64,000 nucleotides of DNA. Source: Rhizobium sp. Q54 (GTDB lineage: Bacteria > Pseudomonadota > Alphaproteobacteria > Micropepsales > Micropepsaceae). The notes below the pieces were generated by a model. It had not been told where the DNA came from and made no database searches. It worked only from the letters and a program-made list of their open reading frames with translations. Numbering within the stretch: position 1 is the first letter of the stretch; every line of letters begins with the position of its first letter. Below, one piece after another: positions 45,110 to 52,074 of this stretch. Both the position numbers and the translations under genes were made by a program. The stretch is from positions 1 to 64,000 of the forward strand of contig CAMAPL010000005.1 of assembly GCA_945860165.1 (NCBI GenBank), written 5' to 3'.

Positions 45110-45790
45110 TCATTTTGTCGAGTTAAAGCCTGGTTTCGTCGCTGATATTGCGGACCCGGCCCGGGCCGGCGATCTCGTTCTTGGCCTCTTCGCTGGGGGG
45201 GCGGCCTTGCTGATGCCGGCGATTTCCACCCGCGCCTCGCGCGACCTTACCTGGCCGAAATCGGCATGGCCGATGCCCGCCATCTCGATCTCGACCTTGT
45301 CGCCTCTGCTATCGGCCTCGACCTTGCCGACGCCGGCCATCTCGATCTTGAGATCGCGCTGATCCAGCTTATCGAGGGTCAGCCAGCCCGTTCCGGCGAG
45401 TTCAAATTTCCGGAAAGTGCGGCCGGGCAGGGTGATCTCCAGGTCTTCGGTGCGGCTGCCCCAACCGGGGCAATCCAGCTCGATATCGCCGTCCTCGACA
45501 CGCAGATGCGCCAGGACCTGCTGATTGCCGGTGACATGCACACGATCGTCGGTGCCGGGCGTGTAGCGGGCATGGCCGCGTAGCGCCAGTCCGGCATGGT
45601 CGCTGCCGTCCCAGTCCAGGATGCGTTGGCGCGCGGTGGCGCCAGCTACCGCCTGGCACCGCGCCAGGTCGCTGAAGGCGAGAAAATACATGTCGGAAAA
45701 ATCCCTGCCGCCGATGGCCGCCGCGGCCCCCATGCATAGGGCGGACCCGGTCAGGCCGACGAAGGCGATGATGGCAAGCTTGTGCACCAT
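45110..45790 (-). CDS. exported GIN-domain (DUF2807-like) protein, C-terminus shifted at a G7 run
   Basis: The 226-residue product has a signal peptide (MVHKLAIIAFVGLTGSALCMGAAAA), then a head-GIN-type beta-helix with repeated IEMAGVGKVE, IEMAGIGHAD and VEIAGISK units. After the run of seven G/C bases at 45195-45201, the frame encodes a basic, unrelated tail (AKRPRTRSPARAG...). With one base fewer, the frame reads SEEAKNEIAGPGRVRNISDETRL and ends at a natural stop, which fits the repeat pattern. It is therefore either a homopolymer sequencing error or slippage. The role of GIN domains is unclear; envelope stress is one proposal. Confidence 0.72.
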   Translation of the reverse strand: MVHKLAIIAFVGLTGSALCMGAAAAIGGRDFSDMYFLAFSDLARCQAVAGATARQRILDWDGSDHAGLALRGHARYTPGTDDRVHVTGNQQVLAHLRVEDGDIELDCPGWGSRTEDLEITLPGRTFRKFELAGTGWLTLDKLDQRDLKIEMAGVGKVEADSRGDKVEIEMAGIGHADFGQVRSREARVEIAGISKAAPPAKRPRTRSPARAGSAISATKPGFNSTK

Positions 45791-46110: not shown

Positions 46111-47763
46111 CTAGGCCTTCATCGCTTTTTTTCGGATGGCTGCCAGCGTTGTCATCGGGGTGATGCCTTCGGCGTCGAACTTCACATGAAGGATGGACGG
46201 CAATCTTGAGGCTTGCGCCGCCAGGAAGGCGGGCGCGAAATCCTCCGTCTTTTCCACCGTGGCGCCGAAGCCGCCAAAGCTTCGCGCCATGGCCGCAAAA
46301 TCGGGGTTGACCAGATCCGTGCCGTAGACCCGACCAGGATATTCGCGCTCCTGATGCATGCGGATGGTACCGTAGCAGCCATTGTCATAGACGATGACGA
46401 TGATGGGCAGGCCGTACTGCACAGCGGTGGCGAACTCCTGTCCCGTCATCAGGAAGTCGCCGTCGCCGGCCAGCGCCACCACCGTGCGCCCCGGGTGCAG
46501 CTGCTGCATCGCCACGGCGGCGGGCACGCCATAACCCATAAAGCCGCAGATCGGCGCCACCTGGGTGGCGAAACGGCGGAAGCGGTAGAAGCGGTGAATC
46601 CAGGCGGCGTAATTGCCCGCGCCATTGCACAGGATGGTGTCGGGCGAGAGGTGGCTGCGTAGCCAGATCATGATCTCGCTGAGATTGACGGCGCCGGGCT
46701 GTGGCACTGGTTGCTCCGACCAGTCCAGATAGCCCTGGTGCGCGGCGGTGAGATCGCGGGCAGGGCCGGGCGGCGACAAGTTATCGAGCGCGGCGGCGAA
46801 GGCCTGCGGCGAGGCGTGAATGGCCAGATGCGGGCGCCAGACGCGGCCGATCTCTTCGGCGCCGGGATAGACATGCACCGTTTTCATCTGCGGATCGGGA
46901 ATGTCGAGCAGGGTATAGCCTTGGGCGGTGAGTTCGTTCAACCGCGCGCCGGCCACGATCACCAGGTCGCTGGCCTTGAACCGCGCCACCAGTTTGGGAT
47001 TGGGACCAAGCCCCAGGTCGCCGGCATAGGCCGGATGCAGGGCATCGGCCAGATGGGCGCGGCGAAAAGACGTGGCGACGGGAATGCCGAATTTTTGCGC
47101 AAAGCGCAGTATCGCGGTGCAGGCCTCGTCGTTCCAGCGCGATCCGCCCAGCAGCAGCATCGGGCGCGCGCTTTGCGCGATCAGCTTTTCCAGTTCCGCC
47201 ATGGCCTGCGCGCCCGGCGCGGTTTCTGGCACGGCGACACGAGCCGCATCCTTTGATGCGGAGGGACGCGACAGCATATCGTGCGGCAGGGCCAGTACCA
47301 CGGGGCCGGGACGCCCCGACATGGCGGCTGTGAAAGCACCGGCGACATATTCCGCCATGCGGTCCGGATCGTCGATCTCGGCGGTGAACTTAGTCATGCT
47401 GCCGAACACGGCGCCAAAATCCATTTCCTGGAACGCGCCGCGGCCGCGATTGCCGGTTTCGACCTGGCCGGCAAACAGGATCATTGGCGTGGAATCCTGC
47501 TGGGCGATATGCACGCCGCCCGAGGCATTGGTGGCGCCCGGACCGCGCGTGACAAAGCAGATGCCGGGGCGACCGGTGACCTTGCCATGGGCTTCCGCCA
47601 TCATCGCTGCGCCGCCCTCGTTGCGGCAGACGGTGACTTTGATGCCGCTATCACGCAGCGCGTCCAGCACGGCGAGATAGGATTCGCCCGGCACGCAGAA
47701 CACGCGGCTAACGCCCTGGATGTGCAACTGGTCCACCAAAACCTGTGCGGCACTGCGTGTCAT
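46111..47763 (-). CDS. thiamine diphosphate-dependent enzyme (acetolactate-synthase-like large subunit)
   Basis: The 550-residue protein shows the ThDP family layout. The N-terminal PYR domain has the activating Glu49 in CRNEGGAAMMAEA and the FVTRGPGATNASGG loop. A central domain follows, then the C-terminal PP domain with the ThDP/Mg motif GDGDFLMTGQEFATAVQYG...YDN. It is closest in style to the IlvB/oxalyl-CoA decarboxylase/glyoxylate carboligase set; no regulatory subunit gene is adjacent, so a catabolic role is more likely than branched-chain synthesis. The ATG at 47763 has AAGGAC upstream. The substrate is not predictable from this alone. Confidence 0.85.
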   Translation of the reverse strand: MTRSAAQVLVDQLHIQGVSRVFCVPGESYLAVLDALRDSGIKVTVCRNEGGAAMMAEAHGKVTGRPGICFVTRGPGATNASGGVHIAQQDSTPMILFAGQVETGNRGRGAFQEMDFGAVFGSMTKFTAEIDDPDRMAEYVAGAFTAAMSGRPGPVVLALPHDMLSRPSASKDAARVAVPETAPGAQAMAELEKLIAQSARPMLLLGGSRWNDEACTAILRFAQKFGIPVATSFRRAHLADALHPAYAGDLGLGPNPKLVARFKASDLVIVAGARLNELTAQGYTLLDIPDPQMKTVHVYPGAEEIGRVWRPHLAIHASPQAFAAALDNLSPPGPARDLTAAHQGYLDWSEQPVPQPGAVNLSEIMIWLRSHLSPDTILCNGAGNYAAWIHRFYRFRRFATQVAPICGFMGYGVPAAVAMQQLHPGRTVVALAGDGDFLMTGQEFATAVQYGLPIIVIVYDNGCYGTIRMHQEREYPGRVYGTDLVNPDFAAMARSFGGFGATVEKTEDFAPAFLAAQASRLPSILHVKFDAEGITPMTTLAAIRKKAMKA

Positions 47764-47896
47764 GCGATGTCCTTGTTGCTGCACCTCCACAATAGCGCGG
47801 CTCTGTCCCAGATTGAAACGGCGAGAAGATGGTTACGTGCACCCCCCGCTTGCTCGCCTATTGCGCCGGTTTTTTGTTAATCCTCCCGCGCTGATC

Positions 47897-48904
47897 ATGC
47901 CGCACGCCTTGGGGTTGGATACGATGAGCCGGGTTGAACATTTTTTGCTGGGCGGCCGCCACAATCGCGCCGCCATCCATGTCGGGCTGGTCAACAATAT
48001 GCCCGATGCGGATCTGCGCGCCACCGAACTGCAATTCGCCAAGTTGCTGAAGGAATCGGCCGGCGCGCTGGATGTGCGGCTCAGGCTCTTTTCCCTGCGC
48101 GGCATCGCACGCGGCGAGCAGGCGCGTTCGCGCATGGATGGCTTCTACGATGACGCCGCTTTTCTGCAGGCCGCCAATATCGATGCCCTGATCGTGACCG
48201 GCGCGGCCTGTGACGGAAGCGACATGCGCCAGCAGCCTTACTGGCCGGAACTGACGCAGATGATCGACTGGGCCGAAACCAGCACGCTCTCCACATTGTT
48301 TTCCGGGCAGGCCGCGCAGGCGGCGGTGCTGCATCTGGACGGCATCGCGCCGCGTCCGCTGGCCCGCAAGATGTCCGGCGTGTTTGGCACCATGCGGGTC
48401 GAGGATGATCCGCTGTTCTTCAGCCTGTCGCTCACCATGCCGGTGCCGCATAGCCGCGCCCATGACATCGCCGAAGCCGAACTTTCGGCAAAGGGCTATC
48501 GGGTCCTGTCGCGGCTGGCCAATGGCCAGGTGGATACTTTCACCCGCGAACCGGCAGGCCATAGCCGCTTTGTCTTCCTGCCGGGCCATCCCGAATATGA
48601 CCGGGGTACCCTGGGCCGCGATGATCTGCGCGACATGGATCTGTTCCTGAGCGGCAAGATCGCGCCGGCCCCCGCCATTCCGGAAAATTATTTTGACCGC
48701 GCCACCGAAAACCGGCTGGCAGAGGCCGGCACCGGCGACAGCGCCGCGCTGGCCCGCGCCACCGAGATCATCGCCGGGGCGCTGACTTTGCAATCCTGGC
48801 GGCTGCATACCGGACGTCTGTTCGCCAACTGGCTGACCCTGGTGGCGGCGGCCAAGGCCCGGCGCACCTCATCTCGCAGCGTTCATACCCGCAAGTGCGC
48901 CTAG
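47897..48904 (+). CDS. homoserine O-succinyltransferase (MetA)-like protein lacking the catalytic Cys
   Basis: The 335-residue protein has the MetA fold: IHVGLVNNMPDADLRATELQF, VTGAACDGSD, SGVFGTMRVEDDPLF and the His-Glu pair in LPGHPEYDRG. In MetA the acyl-carrying Cys lies in a motif of the type TLF-x-C-x-A-x-QAA. Here the segment reads TLFSGQAAQAA, with Gly137 where Cys is expected. The protein may be non-catalytic, use another residue (Cys105 is present), or have a different activity. ATG 47897 is used; 47924 is an alternative start. It ends four bases into the convergent TPR/oxygenase gene. Confidence 0.7.
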   Translation: MPHALGLDTMSRVEHFLLGGRHNRAAIHVGLVNNMPDADLRATELQFAKLLKESAGALDVRLRLFSLRGIARGEQARSRMDGFYDDAAFLQAANIDALIVTGAACDGSDMRQQPYWPELTQMIDWAETSTLSTLFSGQAAQAAVLHLDGIAPRPLARKMSGVFGTMRVEDDPLFFSLSLTMPVPHSRAHDIAEAELSAKGYRVLSRLANGQVDTFTREPAGHSRFVFLPGHPEYDRGTLGRDDLRDMDLFLSGKIAPAPAIPENYFDRATENRLAEAGTGDSAALARATEIIAGALTLQSWRLHTGRLFANWLTLVAAAKARRTSSRSVHTRKCA

Positions 48905-50721
48905 AAAGGCACCACGTCAAAAGCGATTGTCGTCCGCGCCGCCGTGTCGTGGAACGGCACCGTGCCATGCCACATATAAGAGGGAAACAGCACCAGCCTG
49001 CCGGGCACCGGCTGAATGGCGCGGCGGATGGGCGTTTTCAGCACGACATCCAGCGCTGGCTCGCCGAACTTGATCCAGCCCTGGCGCGCCGCCTCGTTTT
49101 TCGTCGCGTCCGGCACGGAGACATAATAGCAGGAACTGATCCAGCCTTCGTGATGGATGTGATTGACGTGAAAGCCGCTGCTACGCAGCCGCGATGACCA
49201 TGAGCCGGCATAGCGAAAATCCTTAGTTCGCCGCGACAGGAGCGGATGTTCTGCGTCCTCGTCCAGTTCGGCAATATAGCGCGCCACCGCCCCGTCGATC
49301 CGCTGTTTCAGCTTTGTGACCGGTGGCAGGGCGGCGGGAAACAGATGATCGGACGTCTGGGTGCCGCCGCGCAGCGACTGGCTGATGAATTCCCCGGTTT
49401 CGGGATGTAGGCGGTCCAGCTCGGTATTGAGTTCGAGGTTGAAGCTTTCCATGTCGGAAAAACCCTCCGGCGGCTCCAGGTCGAAACTGCGCACCAGCGT
49501 GTCATAGCCGTTGAGAGCATCGTCCCGCCCGTCTTCCAGCATGCGTGAAGCGATGCTCAGTATTGCCAGACTGCCGCCGTCCGCCGGCGCAAGCCGCAAT
49601 GCCTGCTCGCACAGCCAAGCCGCCTTCTGCGGATCGCCGCTCAGGATCGCCGGTTCGGCGGCGCGGCGAAAGATATCCGCATCATCGCCATGCCGGGACA
49701 GCAACGCCTCGAACGCAGTAACGGCCTCGTGGTGGCGCTTCATCATGCTCAGTTCATTGGCGGTGCAGAGGGCCGCGACCTTGTCGTCGGGATCGCGCGC
49801 CAGCAGCGCGGCATAAATCGCGTGTGCCTCCTCGTCGCGTTTTTCATGGGCCAGGAAGAAGGCCTTGCCCATCAGCAGTTCGCGGCTTTGGGGACTGCGG
49901 TCATAGGAGCTGAGAAACTTGTCGCTGCGGCCCAGCTGAAAGAGCAGGGCGTTATAGTCGTGATGCAGCGCTGCATTGCCGGGCGTGCGCGCGATCTCGC
50001 TTTCGAAAATCGCCATCGCTTCGTCAAAGCGTTTCAGATTTTGCAGGCTTTCGGCGCGGTGCAGCGCGAGGTTGGGCAGGGTGGGGTCGTTTACCAGGGC
50101 ATTGTCACAGGCCTCCAGTGCTTCGCTGTCCTTGCGCTGGCGGCGCAAGGCTTGGCCGAGCTGGAGATAGAGCTGCGCCTTGAGCCGCGGCTCCGCCGTT
50201 TCGTTCAAGGCCCGGCGCAGCGGCGCTTCGGCTTCATCGGGGCGGCGGGCATCCACCAGCACCGCGCCCAGCGCCAGCTTGGCATGGACGTGGGCCGGCA
50301 TGACCCGCAGCAGATGGCGAAAGAATTTCTCCGCTTCGTCCAGCCGCGCGGTCCGGTGCAGCAAGGCGCCCAGCTCGAAAAGCGCTTCGGTGAAATCGGG
50401 CTTGCGCTTCACCGCGACCCGCAAGGCCGTTTCGGCCTCCGCCGTCTGTCCCAGCCGCGACAGGGTCAGCCCCTGGTTGAAGGCGAAGACCGGATCGCGC
50501 GGCTCGGCCTTTGCCGCCTGGGTGAAGAGGTTGACTGCTTCGGCAAGCTGGCCCTGATTCATCCGCAGAGTGCCCGCGAGGTTCAGCAGGTCGGGATGAG
50601 CCGGCAGGCTGCCGATGAAAAAAGGCGCCAGCGCCATCTCCGCGACAGCCATATTGCCGGCCTGCAGCGCCCGTGTGGCGGTCACCAGGGCTTGCTGAAC
50701 GGCGGGAGAGGGGGCGGTCAT
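48901..50721 (-). CDS. TPR protein with C-terminal 2OG-Fe(II) oxygenase domain
   Basis: The 606-residue protein begins with about 400 residues of tetratricopeptide repeats (for example ALRVAVKRKPDFTEALFELG and LKAQLYLQLGQALRRQRKD). It ends with a 2-oxoglutarate/iron oxygenase domain. Visible there are HVNHIHHEGWISSCYYVSVP, the distal His in PSYMWHGTVPF and the following Arg that would bind 2-oxoglutarate. Such proteins are putative hydroxylases of unknown substrate. It lies directly upstream of and divergent from the hopanoid cluster (200 bases from hpnI). Confidence 0.82.
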   Translation of the reverse strand: MTAPSPAVQQALVTATRALQAGNMAVAEMALAPFFIGSLPAHPDLLNLAGTLRMNQGQLAEAVNLFTQAAKAEPRDPVFAFNQGLTLSRLGQTAEAETALRVAVKRKPDFTEALFELGALLHRTARLDEAEKFFRHLLRVMPAHVHAKLALGAVLVDARRPDEAEAPLRRALNETAEPRLKAQLYLQLGQALRRQRKDSEALEACDNALVNDPTLPNLALHRAESLQNLKRFDEAMAIFESEIARTPGNAALHHDYNALLFQLGRSDKFLSSYDRSPQSRELLMGKAFFLAHEKRDEEAHAIYAALLARDPDDKVAALCTANELSMMKRHHEAVTAFEALLSRHGDDADIFRRAAEPAILSGDPQKAAWLCEQALRLAPADGGSLAILSIASRMLEDGRDDALNGYDTLVRSFDLEPPEGFSDMESFNLELNTELDRLHPETGEFISQSLRGGTQTSDHLFPAALPPVTKLKQRIDGAVARYIAELDEDAEHPLLSRRTKDFRYAGSWSSRLRSSGFHVNHIHHEGWISSCYYVSVPDATKNEAARQGWIKFGEPALDVVLKTPIRRAIQPVPGRLVLFPSYMWHGTVPFHDTAARTTIAFDVVPF

Positions 50722-50922
50722 CTTTCCATACTATAATGACTGGCCATGCCTTTCCCAGCGGTGGGCGGCGATGACAGTTTTTCATACATTACCATTATAT
50801 TACAATATGTTACGGAGTAATTCCAAAATTTCCACCTGTCGCAAAACGTCACCAAATGACCCTCCCCCCTCCCAGGGCGATGATCTAATAAGTATGTGCG
50901 TTGTGGGGGGTGTAACGGGACG

Positions 50923-52074
50923 ATGGATTCGGTTTTTACATTTCTGGGCTGGGCTTTGCTGGCGATCGCGTTGATCGGGACCGGCTATGCGCTGCTGGCT
51001 GCGGTGCTGGCCGGCCGCTTCATGCGTGCCGCGCCCAAAGCCCCGGTCCACCATCCCGCCGTCACCATTCTCAAGCCGCTCCATCAGTGCGAACCGGATC
51101 TGGCGAAAAACCTGGAGACCTTCTTCACCCAAGATTACCCCGCTTCGGTGCAAATCGTGTTCGGCGTGCATGACCAGGCCGATCCCGCCATCGCGGTGGT
51201 AAGAGCGCTGCAGGCGAAATATCCGAGGGCCGACACCATGCTGGTGGTGGACGCGGCGCTGTATGGCGCCAACGCCAAGATTTCCAACCTCATCAACATG
51301 CTGCCATCCGCCAAGCACGACACTTTGGTGCTGTCCGACAGTGACATCGCCGTCGGCCCGGGCTGGCTGGTGCAAGTCACCGCGGCGCTCGGCCGCCCCA
51401 ATGTCGGCGTTGTTACCTGTCTCTATACCGGCGAACCGGCGCGGGATGGGCACTGGCTGTGGTCGGGGCTGGTGGCGATGGGAACGTCCTACAGCTTTCT
51501 GCCCAACGCCGTGTTGGGCACTAGCCTGGGCTTGGCTGCGCCCTGTTTCGGTTCAACTATCGCGCTCACGCGCCAGACCCTGGAAGAGGTCGGCGGTTTT
51601 GCTGTTTTCGCCGACCAACTGGCCGACGATTATGAAATCGGCCGCGCGGTGCAGGCCCGTGGCTATACCTTGGCGATCCCCGCCCTGGGCGTGGTCCACA
51701 CCGCCGCCGAAAACACGCTGGCTGACCTGTTCCGGCATGAGCTGCGCTGGTCCCGCACCATTCGTTTGGTAAAACCCGCCGGCCATGTCGGCAGCATCGT
51801 CACCCATGGCTTCGCCTTTGCCCTGATGGGTGCGGCGCTACTGGGGTTCAACTTCGCCAGCATGATGATCCTGGCTTTGGCACTGACGGCCCGCTTGTTC
51901 CTGAAATCCCGGATTGACGGGCTTTTTCGCACCTATGCCGGCCCTTACTGGCTGATGCCGGTGCGCGATCTGCTCAGTTTTGCGGTGTTTCTGGCATCAC
52001 TGTTCGGCGAAACCGTGCATTGGCGCGGCAGCCACTTTGCGGTAGAGCCATCCGGCGCAATGTCCCAGGTTTGA
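50923..52074 (+). CDS. hpnI: hopanoid glycosyltransferase HpnI
   Basis: The 383-residue protein is a family 2 glycosyltransferase with a membrane segment at the N-terminus (WALLAIALIGTGYALLAAVLA) and three at the C-terminus. The catalytic motifs are VLSDSDIAVGPGWL and the HELRWSRT (Q/R-x-x-R-W-like) box. This is the HpnI/ceramide-glucosyltransferase-like arrangement. In characterised systems HpnI adds N-acetylglucosamine to bacteriohopanetetrol. It begins the plus-strand hopanoid cluster; the start at 50923 follows GGGACG. Confidence 0.9.
   Translation: MDSVFTFLGWALLAIALIGTGYALLAAVLAGRFMRAAPKAPVHHPAVTILKPLHQCEPDLAKNLETFFTQDYPASVQIVFGVHDQADPAIAVVRALQAKYPRADTMLVVDAALYGANAKISNLINMLPSAKHDTLVLSDSDIAVGPGWLVQVTAALGRPNVGVVTCLYTGEPARDGHWLWSGLVAMGTSYSFLPNAVLGTSLGLAAPCFGSTIALTRQTLEEVGGFAVFADQLADDYEIGRAVQARGYTLAIPALGVVHTAAENTLADLFRHELRWSRTIRLVKPAGHVGSIVTHGFAFALMGAALLGFNFASMMILALALTARLFLKSRIDGLFRTYAGPYWLMPVRDLLSFAVFLASLFGETVHWRGSHFAVEPSGAMSQV

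Follow-up and report, generated by a model that had tools for sequence, protein, structure and literature searches.

A MetA-like protein with glycine at the catalytic cysteine position: a putative pseudoenzyme from a clade in which the cysteine tracks an upstream metY gene

The window analysed here, a stretch of 64,000 nucleotides from Rhizobium sp. Q54 (contig CAMAPL010000005.1), carries on its forward strand a reading frame (47897-48904) of 335 amino acids whose translation contains the motif TLFSGQAAQAA (Table 1). Translation more likely starts at ATG 47924 (MSRVE...) than at ATG 47897, because most orthologues begin at that site, and the residue numbered Gly137 here would then be Gly128. 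The product matched the Pfam family HTS (PF04204, homoserine O-succinyltransferase) over residues 23-315 with 171.5 bits, well above the gathering cut-off of 27, and phmmer comparison with PDB chains matched five solved MetA sequences, the best being 7cbe (E 1.5e-24). In the phmmer alignment Gly137 lies opposite Cys142 of 7cbe, within ...STLFVCWAVQAA (residue number counted in the alignment), and Cys142 is the residue of MetA that forms the acyl-enzyme; His231 pairs with His235 of this chain and Glu233 with Glu237. At the other conserved columns of the MetA active site (chain residues S192, R193, E246 and R249), the window protein retains S186, R187 and R245, while E246 is replaced by Asp242. 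The initial annotation had described a MetA-like protein with glycine at the catalytic cysteine and the His-Glu pair kept, and both parts of this description are borne out by the HTS match and by the alignment of these residues. The remaining cysteines are C105 and C334 only; alignment to MetA proteins, proposed there as a check, put neither Cys105 nor any other cysteine at the nucleophile site, and Cys105, which is not conserved, was rejected as the active-site cysteine by this alignment.

The protein resembles MetA (PF04204; NF003776) in its full-length HTS match, its active-site His and Glu, a PHSR-type Arg and the motif GHPEYD, but differs in having no Cys nucleophile and in scoring 301.6 bits against NCBIfam NF003776 (MetA long form), under the equivalog cut-off of 358. 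Cys-bearing relatives scored 360.0 (L072) and 346.8-353.3 (three other members), and this score alone cannot part Cys-bearing from Cys-less proteins because a member with Asp at the nucleophile column (L074) also reached 347.1. An AlphaFold model computed from ten sequences had a pLDDT of 43.8 and was unusable. In most loci of the clade described below, the site is bordered by HpnI and a DUS gene. The protein with TPR and 2OG-Fe(II) oxygenase-like regions beside hpnI is patchy among relatives, several of which carry at this place a tandem array of at least two copies of a DUF2807 (head-GIN) protein, encoded in the window at 45110-45790. The thiamine-pyrophosphate (TPP) enzyme gene was considered as a partner and rejected, its adjacency being limited to the window subclade.

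Table 1. Features of the MetA-like locus, in window coordinates
Feature	Position	Strand	Remark
Thiamine-pyrophosphate enzyme (NF006052)	46111..47790	-	Divergent; neighbour in the window and the three nearest relatives
Upstream gap	47791..47923	.	Site of metY in Cys-bearing relatives
MetA-like protein, HTS family	47924..48904	+	Nucleophile Cys replaced by Gly; frame also open from ATG 47897
Gly137 codon (ggg)	48305..48307	+	At the catalytic Cys column
His189	48461..48463	+	Asn in 17/17 Cys-bearing long-form homologues, changed in 12/14 Cys-less
His231-Pro-Glu233	48587..48595	+	Active-site His and Glu retained
Asp242	48620..48622	+	Glu in 17/17 Cys-bearing long-form homologues, changed in 7/14 Cys-less
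TPR protein with C-terminal 2OG-Fe(II) oxygenase-like region	48901..50721	-	Convergent; syntenic marker
HpnI glycosyltransferase	50896..52074	+	Syntenic marker

We searched 100 genomes, 33 of which had a homologue, and with four further members added we obtained a single orthologous clade of 21 proteins (support 100/99) with conserved synteny. The nucleophile column of this clade holds Cys in seven members, Gly in ten (the window protein included), Asp in two, Ser in one and Ala in one. The substitution is thus as initially annotated, but it is not peculiar to the window protein, 14 of the 21 members being without the cysteine. Parsimony on the tree, from which residue 137 was left out during construction, requires at least seven changes between Cys and non-Cys and nine changes of residue; one Cys-bearing and one Asp-bearing member are 91% identical. 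Cys was present in all 37 homologues read outside the clade (27, six and four loci, a subset of all search matches). Truncated remnants of the MetA-like gene occur at the conserved site in two close relatives (L058:3542-4126 in G001 and L059:1892-2197 in G017; left out of the tree and of the state counts), and the gene is cleanly absent from the same site in four genomes (G006, G008, G044 and G448), which indicates that it is dispensable in places.

What is new here is that, across the loci compared, the presence of the cysteine tracks the presence of an upstream metY. A gene for a MetY-like O-acylhomoserine sulfhydrylase lies directly upstream in all seven Cys-bearing members and in 10/10 outgroup loci; within the clade it is on the same strand as the MetA-like gene, about 40-140 bases away. 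No upstream metY was found at any of 13 Cys-less loci (1.3 kb of upstream sequence could be read in L054 and at least 4.3 kb in the others), a count that leaves out L057, whose contig starts inside the gene; in the window there was no metY match within 8 kb upstream. When whole genomes were queried with the MetY protein of L051, the operon-type MetY was recovered from 7/7 genomes with a Cys-bearing protein (75-100% identity), and nothing above 51% was found in the 14 Cys-less genomes (completeness 82-100%, some therefore incomplete), including that of the window; one of them, G016, gave no match at 1e-80. The operon-type gene was also absent from the two genomes with remnants and the four with no MetA-like gene. 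In the Ser-bearing member L068, a fossil of metY survives as its first 35 codons, 35 bases upstream of the MetA-like gene. Independent pairs on supported branches were concordant for metY and Cys in 4/4 cases, and the sign test (p 0.125) is not significant because four pairs are too few. At a further locus (L055:7582-8879) the metY match upstream of a Cys-bearing gene falls into two reading frames that part near codon 50; this could reflect an error in sequencing, or else a partner that has only just been disrupted with the cysteine still in place.

The initial annotation had reasoned that O-acyl-homoserine would have to be made in some other way in this organism, and suggested looking for another metA or metX in the genome. 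Such a search found MetX in the window's genome, full-length, with the GGSMGG serine motif and 548.7 bits to NF001209 (cut-off 331), although its score against TIGR01392 (475.4) is under that model's cut-off of 500. MetW follows (236.5 bits, cut-off 189.5), MetZ (553.4, cut-off 510.05) is encoded elsewhere in the genome than MetX-MetW, and there is a second MetY that is not of the operon type (623.6, cut-off 495.1); methionine synthesis would therefore have an alternative route. In this genome MetX and the MetA family share one step of the pathway, the two folds being unrelated, and the intact MetX is likely to be the working homoserine acyltransferase. A paper by Bastard and colleagues reportedly deals with the specificity of MetA and MetX. 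MetX is present in all 21 clade genomes, in G012 as two pieces on two contigs. Six genomes with MetA and without MetX (G019, G023, G029, G195, G295 and G376) keep the cysteine, and no MetY match was found in the MetA flanks examined in them. In our sample, where MetX was scored for only part of the Cys-bearing homologues outside the clade, the cysteine appears to be kept where MetA has either no other homoserine acyltransferase beside it or metY as its pair, and to be lost where MetX is present and the metY-MetA pair is broken. MetW has been suggested to aid homoserine acylation (PMC4239095).

Loss of the cysteine was accompanied by change at other core positions. The core was defined as the 57 columns, residue 137 aside, at which ten long-form outgroup proteins with Cys do not vary, and parsimony was used to count changes within the clade. 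At core columns there were 63 changes on post-loss branches vs 15 on Cys-retaining branches, and at other columns 488 vs 506 (odds ratio 4.35, Fisher p 2.5e-8); post-loss branches were set by tip states, and L053 or L072 may have regained Cys. The excess persisted when the fast-evolving L057 was removed (47:15 core vs 423:485 other, p 5.4e-6), when the window subclade was removed (p 3.3e-6) and when both were (p 1.5e-3). Among individual columns, Asn189 is altered in 12/14 Cys-less vs 0/7 Cys-bearing members, and Glu242, Ser186 and Arg245 are altered in seven, five and four of the 14 Cys-less members, respectively; independent-pair tests of single columns, with four pairs, were underpowered.

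These patterns bear on whether the proteins might still be enzymes, with His231-Glu233 as general base for direct transfer or hydrolysis, possibly of a new substrate in a remodelled pocket. Such a Cys-free enzyme would account for the retention of His231 in 13/14 Cys-less members (L057 has Arg) and of Glu233 and Arg187 (chain R193) in 14/14, as well as for the appearance of His in place of Asn189 three separate times in Cys-less lineages. However, S186, N189, E242, R245 and H141 drift without any single common set of replacements, and, with G, A, S or D at the nucleophile column, the members have no new catalytic group in common. The recurrent changes Asn189-His, Ala39-Asp and His141-Gln were rejected as a common new active site: all are single-base changes in the genetic code, and relaxed constraint therefore suffices for their recurrence. 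We consider a Cys-free enzyme unlikely.

Slightly less likely again is that these genes are functionless, decaying leftovers caught prior to loss. The remnants and clean absences described above would fit such decay, as would L057, which is on a long branch and has also lost His231. Against this, dN/dS among Cys-less pairs (six of the window subclade, three of L118-L120, and L074/L109) was 0.14-0.25 by NG86 and 0.09-0.18 by YN00 at dS of 0.2-1.0, a range similar to that of neighbouring genes (0.11-0.25 and 0.04-0.18), and the frames are full-length in 13/14 Cys-less members, the fourteenth (L057) being cut only by a contig end. Cys-bearing pairs gave 0.27-0.34 (NG86) and 0.12-0.13 (YN00), the YN00 values covering part of the pairs. 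In the window subclade, residues 10-79 are under stronger constraint (0.08) than the remainder (0.21-0.28); over the same residues dN/dS is also 0.08 in the Asp pair, 0.24 in the Cys-bearing trio and 0.22 in L118-L120. Continuing purifying selection implies that the protein still does something, and its persistence despite the loss of the cysteine points to a retired enzyme that is probably kept for another job. The window protein combines the two features by which pseudoenzymes are recognized at the sequence level, namely loss of a catalytic residue and purifying selection.

Two further alternatives carry little weight. Use of another residue as nucleophile, such as Cys105, is very improbable: this residue aligns with chain residue 110, in a TGA loop aligned to chain residues 106-112 and near residue 111, the acyl-specificity residue, but there is no Cys at this position in the three nearest Gly-bearing relatives. 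A sequencing or assembly error is hardly credible, as nothing was found in its favour and the substitution is no sequencing accident given that three relatives, each assembled separately, have the same Gly as the window in a conserved neighbourhood.

We therefore regard it as probable that the window protein is a MetA that has been disarmed repeatedly and independently within its clade, a pseudoenzyme that no longer serves as a homoserine acyltransferase and is kept for a Cys-independent role. This explanation draws on the substitution, its recurrence, the association with metY, the other route to methionine and continuing selection, each of which the sequences show. The protein would be an orthologue of a second, MetX-independent homoserine acyltransferase that in relatives is paired with the MetY encoded directly upstream, the two forming a redundant branch beside MetX-MetZ. 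We infer that metY was lost first: in a genome with MetX, the ester made by MetA would then have had no dedicated consumer, and the acyltransferase would have become useless or wasteful. The nucleophile could subsequently have been replaced by Gly, Asp, Ser or Ala, through drift or selection, after which the acyl-cysteine intermediate would no longer form and acyltransferase activity would be lost. Constraint on other core positions would then have relaxed, with purifying selection still acting on the fold and on the His-Glu-Arg set and with the N-terminal 80 residues most constrained in the window subclade. The retained role would be other than acyl transfer, for example the binding of a partner or ligand. 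The suggestion in the initial annotation that the protein may have changed function agrees with the repeated nucleophile loss, the release of the core and the continued selection; its other suggestion, a regulatory protein, may or may not apply. Near-invariance of His231, Glu233 and Arg187 after the loss exceeds what a purely structural role would require and counts against the pseudoenzyme explanation; these residues are compatible with either ligand binding or a different chemistry.

The same exact loss recurs while the gene stays full-length, and the record is not limited to stops and deletions; this hints that the disarmament was selected. On the other side, clean losses (four genomes) and remnants (two) occur too. 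A bolder version of the pseudoenzyme explanation, which we put forward tentatively and hold to be possible rather than probable, is that MetA here always had a second, Cys-independent job, that loss of MetY made its chemistry harmful, and that the nucleophile was eliminated by selection in at least seven parallel events while the protein was retained for its second job, which would be centred, in the window lineage, on the N-terminal 80 residues. If true, the clade would be a replicated natural experiment in the conversion of a biosynthetic enzyme to a pseudoenzyme.

A possible parallel is mammalian CPS1, whose class I glutamine-amidotransferase-type domain, of the same broad fold, lost its cysteine yet persists in a non-catalytic capacity. 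In CPS1 the domain forms part of a larger fused enzyme, whereas the window protein stands alone, and in its clade the cysteine is lost repeatedly together with a partner gene. Our literature search, mostly of open-access titles and the starts of abstracts, returned nothing on Cys-less or pseudoenzyme MetA. Pseudoenzymes as such are already known, as catalytically deficient relatives kept by selection (PMC5106787); what is added here is a putative MetA-derived clade of them. Automatic annotation would label such proteins homoserine O-succinyltransferase and so assign methionine synthesis to the wrong gene. The clade also offers replicated close pairs in which partner loss, catalytic-residue loss and protein retention can be traced stepwise, and through which the question of how and why enzymes turn into pseudoenzymes becomes testable in bacteria.

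Among the outgroup loci, MetY-like and MetA-like genes sit in a wider cluster: seven (L060-L066, e.g. L066:3671-10283) share the order TPP enzyme (opposite strand), MetY-like, MetA-like, carrier-plus-thioesterase and AMP-ligase, and this conserved arrangement looks like a specialized-metabolite pathway with an O-acylhomoserine-derived unit. In three more outgroup loci the MetY-like gene is again directly upstream of the MetA-like gene. Rfam gave no SAM riboswitch or other element at the gathering score in the window or in L049 (at the gene or at metX); among the seven sources searched, only L067 gave a match, a SAM-I-IV riboswitch that precedes a canonical MetA.
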